From Methanosarcina horonobensis HB-1 = JCM 15518 (lineage in GTDB: Archaea; Halobacteriota; Methanosarcinia; Methanosarcinales; Methanosarcinaceae), in NCBI RefSeq assembly GCF_000970285.1, contig NZ_CP009516.1, positions 1,467,036 to 1,531,035 on the forward strand: a DNA stretch of 64,000 bases, given 5' to 3'. Both the position numbers and the translations under genes were made by a program. Below the pieces are notes generated by a model. It searched no databases. It saw nothing but the letters and a program-made list of their open reading frames with translations, and was not told the origin of the DNA. This document shows positions 12,101 through 62,477 of the stretch, piece by piece (positions within the stretch are counted from its first letter, which is position 1; every line of letters begins with the position of its first letter).

Positions 12101-12190
12101 GTGAACGGGTAAACCCTTTGTGGTTAGATTTTGTGGTGTGTTATTTGGGTGTGATCTTGTAGATGTGTAGTCAAGGGCAGGCCCGTTCAC
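12101..12190 (-). ncRNA. Small-RNA candidate, family member A
   Basis: The ends pair over 9 bp (GTGAACGGG 12101-12109 with CCCGTTCAC 12182-12190), and a second inner stem (CCCTT/AAGGG) extends the helix. Read on the minus strand it begins GTGAACGGGCC, has a mostly unpaired A/C-rich loop, closes with the complementary end and is followed by a T-rich tract (CATTCTTTTTCTTTATTATG). A TATA box (minus-strand ATTTATATAA, 12219-12228) lies about 30-35 bases upstream. Relative to members B-D the fifth base pair is A-T instead of G-C, a compensated change. No ORF is conserved. Confidence 0.6.
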
Positions 12191-12218: not shown

Positions 12219-12228
12219 TATATAAATA
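12219..12228 (-). promoter_or_regulatory. TATA box for small RNA A
   Basis: Minus-strand ATTTATATAA with A-rich sequence just upstream (possible BRE). The distance to the GTGAACGGG end is a few bases longer than in members B-D, so transcription may start slightly before it. Confidence 0.5.
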
Positions 12229-20287: not shown

Positions 20288-20370
20288 GTGAGCGGAATGA
20301 CGGGGTTGACTTTGAATGAAAGAAAAAAATTGCTGGTGTGTTTGGGAAGTTTGGACTGGAATCCGCTCAC
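20288..20370 (-). ncRNA. Small-RNA candidate, family member B
   Basis: The ends pair over 12 bp with flanks (TTTGTGAGCGGA 20285-20296 / TCCGCTCACAAA 20362-20373). On the minus strand it starts GTGAGCGGATTCC, carries a loop with CTTCCCAAAC and AACCCCGTC, then closes with CCGCTCAC followed by AAAAAACTAACGTTTTCTT. A TATA box (20393-20401) is centred 27 bases upstream of the 5' G. The least C-rich member, but with the same end architecture as the others. Confidence 0.65.
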
Positions 20371-20392: not shown

Positions 20393-20401
20393 TTATAAAT
20401 A
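20393..20401 (-). promoter_or_regulatory. TATA box for small RNA B
   Basis: Minus-strand TATTTATAA preceded by AAAAAAG; centred about 27 bases from the predicted 5' end, the usual archaeal spacing. Confidence 0.55.
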
Positions 20402-20655: not shown

Positions 20656-20746
20656 GTGAGCGGGTTTGGGGAGTTTGGGGAATAGTTGGGGGAATAGTTG
20701 GGGGATATGGGTTTGGGGTTATACTATGGAAAAGAGACCCGCTCAC
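20656..20746 (-). ncRNA. Small-RNA candidate, family member C
   Basis: The ends pair over 10 bp (GTGAGCGGGT 20656-20665 / ACCCGCTCAC 20737-20746). The minus-strand RNA would start GTGAGCGGGTCTCTTTTCC and then contain seven C-runs of three to five separated by A/T (ACCCC, ACCC, TCCCCC twice, TCCCC, TCCCC, ACCC) with almost no self-pairing. It shares the block after the 5' end (GGGTCTCTTTT...ATAACCCCAA) with member D. After the closing stem comes AACTTTTCTC. The TATA box at 20771-20778 is centred 28 bases upstream. Confidence 0.7.
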
Positions 20747-20770: not shown

Positions 20771-20778
20771 TATAAATA
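20771..20778 (-). promoter_or_regulatory. TATA box for small RNA C
   Basis: Minus-strand TATTTATA with GGAAAGC upstream as possible BRE; centre 28 bases from the predicted start. Confidence 0.6.
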
Positions 20779-21273: not shown

Positions 21274-21346
21274 ATGAGCGGGTTGGGGAGTATGAATTGG
21301 GGTGTTGGGGGGTTGGGGTTATCTTACAAAAGAGAGACCCGCTCAC
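21274..21346 (-). ncRNA. Small-RNA candidate, family member D
   Basis: The ends pair over 9 bp (TGAGCGGGT 21275-21283 / ACCCGCTCA 21337-21345). On the minus strand it starts GTGAGCGGGTCTCTCTTTTG and then has ATAACCCCAACCCCCCAACA, ACCCCAATTC and CTCCCCAACCCGCTCA. It is the shortest member (about 73 bases) and clearly homologous to C. A T-rich stretch (TACTTATTCTTAT) follows the closing stem. The TATA box at 21369-21379 is centred about 27 bases upstream. Confidence 0.7.
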
Positions 21347-21368: not shown

Positions 21369-21379
21369 TATAAATATAT
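21369..21379 (-). promoter_or_regulatory. TATA box for small RNA D
   Basis: Minus-strand ATATATTTATA preceded by GCAAA; standard archaeal distance to the GTGAGCGGG end. Confidence 0.6.
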
Positions 21380-21682: not shown

Positions 21683-21756
21683 GGGCTCGTGGTCTAGTCG
21701 GTCATGACATCGCCTTTACACGGCGGGGATCCTGAGTTCGAATCTCAGCGGGCCCA
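21683..21756 (+). tRNA. tRNA-Val (anticodon UAC)
   Basis: 74 bases. Acceptor stem GGGCTCG/CGGGCCC, anticodon stem TCGCC/GGCGG with loop TTTACAC (anticodon TAC, valine), T arm CTGAG-TTCGAAT-CTCAG, discriminator A. CCA is not encoded, and no intron is present. A TATA-like CATATATATA lies near 21595. Confidence 0.95.
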
Positions 21757-61565: not shown

Positions 61566-62477
61566 TTAATTTAGGAGACGTTGGGATCTTCTTGGGATCT
61601 TCAATACATCATAATTTGCCCTTACCCGGTCCCCGCTCACAAAAGAACCTATCAAAAATCCCGCTGTAGCAACAAAATCAAACTTTTCCAGTAGATCATC
61701 ATACCCAATTGATTCTTCCGAACTTCCACTAATCTTATCTCCAACTCCTTTTAGTCCTGGTCTAACAATTGTCGCAGAATAGCCATTCATCCGAAATGTA
61801 ATTTGAGTATTTTTTCCGAGTCGGATAAAGGTTCCATTTTGATTGTTACCTATTGGGTAAGAAACAAGCTCATCTTGTCTAATGCACCTCTGACCTTTGT
61901 GCCCGAAATAAGGTTTAGGAATTACTTCGTTATCATTATCGACGATGGTAGCACTTCATATTCTCCCATCACCTCGTAAATCCAAACATTGACCTTAAAA
62001 ACCCAATGCTATGGCATTACCGGCAACCCACAAGGAACAGCTGACATCGTCCTGTCAAGCCTTTTTGTAACCTTATCTGCCACCTCTCCAGAATACATAT
62101 CCACAGTCTCATTTGCTAGATTTTTTAGCTCGTTATCAATTTTTCCAAAAAGAATATCAAGAGTTTCATCTTTACTTACTGTCACTTCACAGATACCGTT
62201 GCAGTGCCCATTCTAACGTCTGTATCGACTCTGTTCAAAGTGGCTTCAAGTTCATCAGATCAAACCGAAGGATTTGAATTCCGAATTTCTTTTTTATGAC
62301 AGCAGCAAGTTCGGTTGCAAGCTGGTCTGTTGTAGATTTTTCAATTATCTCTTCATCAGTGAGGTTGTTGAGATAATTCGCTGTAAGTGTACGGACGCGG
62401 TCTTTTTTAATCCAGCCGGAAATGACAGGATTTGAACTTACTTCATCGACTACCTCTTCAATGATTTGAAGTCTCAT
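61566..62477 (-). pseudogene. Decayed copy of the 63162-63977 gene
   Basis: From ATG 62477 it matches the intact neighbour (MRLQIIEEVVDEVSSNPVISGWIKKDRVRTLTANYLNNLTDEE), then loses frame after about residue 62 (KKKFGIQIL). Conserved pieces continue in shifted frames, such as DELEATLNRVDTDVRMG and, near the end, FHGxxGDKISGSSEESIGYDDLLEKFDF. At least two one-base losses are visible, for example GCAACGG against GCAAACGG. A clear pseudogene, lying downstream of the intact copy on the same strand. Confidence 0.85.

Follow-up and report, generated by a model that had tools for sequence, protein, structure and literature searches.

A putative class-wide family of small hairpin RNAs in Methanosarcinia, with a candidate anti-ribosome-binding-site segment in one C-rich member

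Introduction

Several small RNAs (sRNAs) use C-rich, exposed segments to reach G-rich sites in mRNAs. The sX13 RNA of Xanthomonas carries C-rich loops (4C/5C) and acts independently of Hfq, and G-rich motifs lie near the translation starts of the mRNAs that it represses (PMC3771888). The same text quotes a C-rich loop for RepG of Helicobacter pylori (PMC3771888). LhrC of Listeria occurs as sibling copies of a G-poor RNA whose redundant CUCCC sites pair with the Shine-Dalgarno (SD) sequence of a target mRNA (PMC4132741).

The RNAs examined here, named A to D in the analysed DNA, are by analogy functionally most like sX13 and LhrC, a likeness that carries no claim of kinship. As in sX13, C-rich loops closed by stable stems would face G-rich start regions. 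In contrast to sX13, which forms three short stem-loops and whose target G-motifs are enriched (PMC3771888), the present RNAs have one stem and one long open loop, their loops lack a general SD enrichment, and the pairing of sRNA C is predicted to reach over the start codon. LhrC shares with them the features listed above, but it is bacterial and has another structure, with a terminator stem-loop (PMC4132741); a sequence relation is not claimed. RepG is likewise directed at a G-repeat in the leader of an mRNA, but that repeat varies in length (PMC8295292), whereas the candidate site here consists of an SD and a start codon. Nearest in taxonomy are the archaeal sRNA154 and sRNA41 of Methanosarcina mazei, of the same genus, for which masking of ribosome-binding sites (RBSs) has been reported; their reported targets are nitrogen and ACDS genes (PMC5867862), and they are compared with members A to H by description, not by sequence.

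RNA genes of the window and their predicted folds

The window, a stretch of 64,000 nucleotides from Methanosarcina horonobensis HB-1, contains four putative genes for hairpin RNAs, all on the minus strand. Those for sRNA B (20288–20370, 83 nt), sRNA C (20656–20746, 91 nt) and sRNA D (21274–21346, 73 nt) form a cluster adjoining a tRNA gene on the plus strand (21683–21756, assigned by an Rfam 15 match), and that for sRNA A (90 nt) occupies 12101–12190. Minus-strand TATA boxes are located 24 nt upstream of C (TTTATA, 20771–20776), 22 nt upstream of D (21369–21374), 23 nt upstream of B (20394–20399) and 30 nt upstream of A (12221–12226). The closing stem comprises 9–10 bp in each of the four and is formed by GUGAGCGGG/CCCGCUCAC, which in C is extended to GUGAGCGGG(U)/(A)CCCGCUCAC, but by the compensated pair GUGAACGGG/CCCGUUCAC in A. 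This compensated stem of A is shared with relatives in other genera.

Fold prediction places the C-rich motifs of C and D in unpaired loops. For sRNA C, a 10-bp stem surrounds a fully unpaired loop (−15.0 kcal/mol); for sRNA D, nearly the whole loop is unpaired; and for A and B an additional short helix is predicted. The sequence-only reading of this DNA had counted up to seven runs of three to six Cs in the loops of C and D, and the runs are indeed there, six in the loop of C (lengths 4, 3, 5, 5, 4, 4) and four in that of D (4, 6, 4, 4), while the seventh run of C and the fifth of D, each of three Cs, belong to a stem arm (the 3' arm in C). C-runs are not universal among members, because A and B, the latter with a G-poor loop, carry only two each. 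Six runs are mildly unusual for the C content of sRNA C, being reached by 50 of 2000 mononucleotide shuffles, and the window holds 15 clusters with at least five C-runs per 90 nt, those of C and D included. The feature beyond chance is the conservation of the hairpins, not the number of C-runs. Elsewhere in the window, a lone GTGAGCGGGG half-stem with C-runs was seen at 61617–61640, with no partner arm in the stretch read.

Distribution and conservation of the family

As judged from sequence comparison, A to D appear to be members of a class-wide archaeal family of TATA-promoted small RNAs of about 45–90 nt. Within the genus, 28 of 30 genomes matched the stem pattern, and a reversed pattern matched none of those 30. 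A stricter pattern that combined TATA box and stem had matches in 44 of the 111 genomes from the family, representing 9 of 14 genera, again with no match for the reversed control. The core pattern GAGCGG...CCCACTCCC...CCGCTC was present in 201/237 class genomes (one reversed match), in 141/150 of the good class genomes and in 35/39 genera. A phylum sample gave 80 of 83 genomes inside the class and 0 of 309 outside it, a split counted from the listed matches; in a stem-only scan of all genomes, those matches outside the class that were listed were mostly unrelated. Outside the genus, the consensus core approximates GUGAGCGGG, a U-run, (C)UAACCCCCACUCCCC and AACCCGCUCAC, and it also occurs on a Methanomethylovorans contig. 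Among loop motifs UAACCCC(C) is the most frequent, and CACUCCCC often comes after it; across the class a U-run frequently lies 5' of the C-runs in core-pattern matches. Tandem copies of the core RNA, two or three at distances of 0.2–1.4 kb, were observed in G048, G050, G053, G136–G138, G140 and G141.

Covariance models of Rfam 15 gave no match to the sRNAs at the gathering score, the tRNA being the only hit in the window, and nothing relevant appeared at E values up to 10 around B–D, around E or at the permease gene discussed below. A literature search found no description of the family; the survey of M. mazei sRNAs from 2009 and the primary reports on sRNA41 and sRNA154 were outside its reach, and some members may already carry numbers in these works.

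After removal by name of overlapping or wrong matches, 104 members were collected. On the C-rich strand, 102 of them have a TATA-like box upstream; the two others are L189 and L198 (the latter at a contig edge). In 99 of the 104 the distance is 21–26 or 30–33 nt. An archaeal promoter of their own at a fixed distance, as expected of sRNA genes, is thus a feature of nearly the entire collection. The 30 nt downstream of the members are T-rich (42% T, 8% G). Such T-rich stretches are expected for archaeal termination. Because the TATA-like box is upstream on the C-rich strand and a T-rich stretch lies downstream, RNAs A to D are most likely transcribed from the minus strand of the window. Together, the stem and the fixed promoter distance point to a short, stable RNA with an open loop, as modelled.

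Covariation is evident in the stem. Of the 104 members, 99 have G-C and 5 have A-U at pair 5, with no mixed pair, and pair 9 is G-C in 89, A-U in 11, A-C in 3 and G-U in 1; these counts understate the variation, because the patterns used for retrieval were biased towards the common stem. The surroundings are conserved as well. At 19 of 24 loci tested, the B-C-D cluster has the same tRNA beside it, as a copy 96–100% identical, and the 3' end of rfcL is recognisable at 7 of the 24. An alignment of 21 C orthologues shows GUCUCUUUUCCAUAGUAUAACCCC as the longest stretch with almost no variation; the later C-runs differ in length by single bases.

Paralogues and further candidate sites

The genome of M. 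horonobensis holds further members, E (849017), F (26243, reverse complement in L374), G (1683580) and H (2778178, L371). The stems of F (GAACGAGCGAG/CUCGCUCGUUC) and H (GGGCAUCUGA/UCAGAUGCCC) are both perfect and wholly different from the common stem, and both RNAs keep the loop motif ACCCCC(CC)ACUCCCA despite this full replacement. In sRNA E, nearly the whole loop is invariant across 25 aligned orthologues of the genus. The genus stem of E (L207, 5009–5099) is longer outwards by about 5–6 bp, with compensating changes (GTGAGTAAT..ACTACTTC versus GTAAGAT..AATCTTC), an extension that was absent from the sequences read in other genera. In member G (L298, 1683580, plus strand), the segment AACAUAUUUUAACCUCCUCC is perfectly complementary to a canonical SD (GGAGGAGG) with spacer and AUG, and it may be an anti-RBS of a different type.

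Searches for sites of the other members gave little. With one mismatch allowed, GGGGAGTGGGG had 45 sites genome-wide, compared with 28 for the reversed pattern; of 30 such loci that were read, two fall within the gene for E, another two are new family members, and no convincing RBS site was seen among the rest. Near-matches to A, B, D and E outside the family included none that was convincing in the M. horonobensis genome. In a comparison of two genomes with only 17 orthologous pairs, no conserved targets of D or E were found, and E was no better than shuffled loops (shuffles being run for E alone). A duplex scan of a 6.6-kb stretch with the rRNA operon returned sites of about −17 to −30 kcal/mol; because rRNA is G-rich and the scan had no shuffle control, no rRNA partner is proposed.

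sRNA C and the start of an amino-acid permease gene

Complementarity to the SD and start of specific mRNAs was found for sRNA C only, with two candidate targets. A search of the M. horonobensis genome with sRNA C returned a perfect complement over 22 of 22 nt (E 3.4e-4) at G000:C1:1896753–1896774. The match covers UAUACUAUGGAAAAGAGACCCG, which holds the initiation codon and the codons just after it in the gene for a 428-aa amino-acid permease (PF13520), and it corresponds to positions 20720–20741 (minus strand) of the window. Overlapping it is the putative anti-RBS segment CCAUAGUAUAACCCC (20715–20729, minus strand), the complement of an SD GGGG, a 7-nt spacer and AUGG. This segment belongs to the long stretch of the C loop that is best conserved among the 21 orthologues, and its exact complement, GGGTTATACTATGG, was located at the gene for sRNA C in 23/30 genomes (24 matches).

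The permease was found in 24 of the 30 genomes, and 18 were retained for which both the start and sRNA C had been extracted; G003 was dropped since its start was not located, and G011, G019, G022, G026 and G028 since no sRNA C had then been extracted from them. With a consensus C, the permease starts of the latter five gave −13.3 to −30.1 kcal/mol. Nucleotides 5–34 of sRNA C paired better with the permease start than with all 100 background starts in 9/18 genomes, and the permease had rank 8 or better in 17/18. Against 636 starts, the same segment placed it at rank 12 or better in 9/18 and in the top 5% in 11/18, and a loop-only segment free of stem bases placed it in the top 1% in 8/18 and the top 5% in 12/18; these counts are not independent, because the genomes share ancestry. 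In many of the 18 predicted duplexes, AACCCC pairs with the SD GGGGUU and CAU with AUG. Pairing is poor in G001, G009 and G014, and swapped sRNA-target pairs were as strong as cognate ones.

Shuffling the leader together with synonymous codons, the latter weighted from sampled genes, left the real pairing stronger at p<0.05 in 13 of 18 genomes. Leader-only shuffles gave p<0.05 in 11 of 18 and synonymous-codon-only shuffles in just 4 of 18, so part of the match in coding bases may reflect constraint on the protein.

sRNA C and the start of alanine dehydrogenase

Among 289 starts sampled in G006, the one that pairs best with sRNA C belongs to alanine dehydrogenase, an assignment supported by TIGR02371 (588 bits against a cut-off of 409). 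Here GGAGGGUUAUACUAUGG and CCAUAGUAUAACCC show perfect 14-nt complementarity, and the predicted pairing places the first C-run of sRNA C on the SD. A 14-mer seed with at most one mismatch was found at the SD-AUG region of this gene in 5 of 30 genomes (G006, G012, G016, G017 and G028). All 14 pairs can form in four of them, exactly in G006 and through one G-U each in G012, G016 and G017, and G028 has a true mismatch. The loop segment ranked the alanine dehydrogenase start 0–10 of 924, ranks that cover the orthologues of these five genomes only and describe rather than prove, because the five were chosen by match.

The alanine dehydrogenase leader with the strongest complementarity to sRNA C, −33.0 kcal/mol with the consensus C, is that of G016 (L461), a genome in which sRNA C was not detected despite the excellent site. 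Across the 30 genomes the seed showed no genome-wide excess, with 20 matches beyond sRNA C itself compared with 25 for the reversed pattern; 18 of the 20 were fetched for reading.

Proposed mechanism

The explanation that we consider best, and to which we give about an even chance, is that a TATA-promoted, stem-closed RNA family includes in sRNA C a member whose CCAUAGUAUAACCCC segment is an anti-RBS that blocks a few specific mRNAs. What the analysis shows is the family, its conservation, the promoter-like box, the predicted fold and the complementarity measured against controls. The 5' end of the RNA would be expected at GUGAGCGG or only a few bases from it, and the single closing stem would display an open, G-poor loop. 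The first C-run of the CCAUAGUAUAACCCC region would pair with the SD, and the preceding bases with the spacer, the AUG and the first codons. The best candidate targets are the APC-type amino-acid permease and alanine dehydrogenase; were the duplex to form in cells, it would block ribosome binding at these starts and repress translation, which could give sRNA C a role in the use of amino acids, alanine in particular.

A broader and more speculative version, which we regard as rather unlikely, would make the family a modular anti-RBS kit with an exchangeable stem, in which UAACCCC(C) clamps the SD, paralogue-specific upstream bases read the start and first codons, and each paralogue controls its own amino-acid or metabolic genes.

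Alternative explanations

The most serious competitor is that the loops act on a protein. Repeated CCCC(C)ACUCCCC modules might bind and titrate an RNA-binding protein, an idea that we hold to be possible, if clearly less probable than the anti-RBS explanation. CsrB/RsmZ-type RNAs titrate an RNA-binding protein in this manner via GGA motifs. The loop core is nearly invariant throughout the class, and that of E is almost unchanged in its 25 genus sequences; the modules recur inside the E and C loops, a U-run often precedes the C-runs, and pairing between the loops and SD zones is not in excess. We know of no protein partner of a C-run loop, however, which counts against this explanation, and protein binding would not account for the anti-RBS segment in sRNA C or for the target matches of that segment. 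The partner of the ultra-conserved core, in E as well as in other genera, may with equal likelihood be a protein or an mRNA.

That the C-runs are general anti-SD elements inhibiting many mRNAs, as the sequence-only reading had proposed, is improbable. The GGGG/GGAGG leaders that it cited before 22021, 6673 and 56717 are present, so that the window does hold G-rich leaders, and loops favour SD zones over upstream control zones (−7.42 versus −4.25 kcal/mol for C). Shuffled loops, however, mostly equal or surpass the real ones at SD zones. In a first test, which used 100 gene starts of the M. horonobensis genome with an unambiguous ATG and 50 shuffles per loop, the real loops paired with the SD zone at −7.42 (C), −7.36 (D) and −6.81 kcal/mol (E); mononucleotide shuffles equalled or exceeded these values in 49/50 (C), 48/50 (D) and 50/50 (E) cases and dinucleotide shuffles in 49/50, 50/50 and 50/50, respectively. 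A typed consensus core was equalled or beaten by 45/50 and 41/50 shuffles. The tail of 16S rRNA, whose sequence was verified in the rRNA gene, served as the control; it produced a clear SD peak at the 100 starts (−4.77 kcal/mol at −16, with mostly −0.9 to −1.7 further upstream), and only 2/50 mononucleotide and 8/50 dinucleotide shuffles were as strong or stronger.

A second test, with 637 SD-informed starts of the same genome and 40 dinucleotide shuffles per loop, gave shuffles as strong or stronger in 38/40 (C), 40/40 (D) and 40/40 (E) cases. For E alone, very strong sites were slightly more numerous than in shuffles (61 versus 53.2), a number reached by 5 of 40 shuffles. GGGTTA is scarce in the SD zones of the genome, at 2/637 compared with 4.4 in shuffled sequence. 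No broad excess of SD complementarity over shuffled loops was thus found for C, D or E at either 100 or 637 starts, the real loops being no better and mostly worse, and a general anti-SD role is unsupported, because shuffled loops pair with SD zones equally well or better while the 16S tail passes the same test. What survives of the proposal is narrower: one C-run, the first of sRNA C, plausibly acts as an anti-SD within an antisense segment directed at specific starts.

It is very unlikely that the hairpins are elements of DNA rather than RNA, either palindromic mobile repeats or sites of G-quadruplex/i-motif formation. Inverted ends, several copies per genome and G-runs on the plus strand would suit such elements, but not the near-fixed distance of a TATA-like box on the C-rich strand, the wholesale replacement of the stem with pairing kept, the conserved base order between the C-runs, or the persistence of the cluster beside the same tRNA gene at 19 of 24 loci. 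Finally, the notion that the loops encode leaderless small proteins, suggested by a GTG at the first base, by reading frames that in C and D run across the loop without a stop and by the leaderless small protein reported for sRNA154 of M. mazei (PMC11456600), is scarcely credible in view of single-base length changes, mostly inside C-runs, among orthologues of C (88–92 nt, 9/21 out of the common frame) and E (71–76 nt, 7/26 out of frame).

Significance

Very few archaeal sRNAs have known targets. The family described here combines paralogues with an ultra-conserved open loop that is present in almost all genomes of one methanogen class. On the favoured explanation, in which sRNA C would block a few specific translation starts, the candidate permease and alanine dehydrogenase targets make RBS occlusion by a C-rich sRNA testable in the genetically tractable Methanosarcina.
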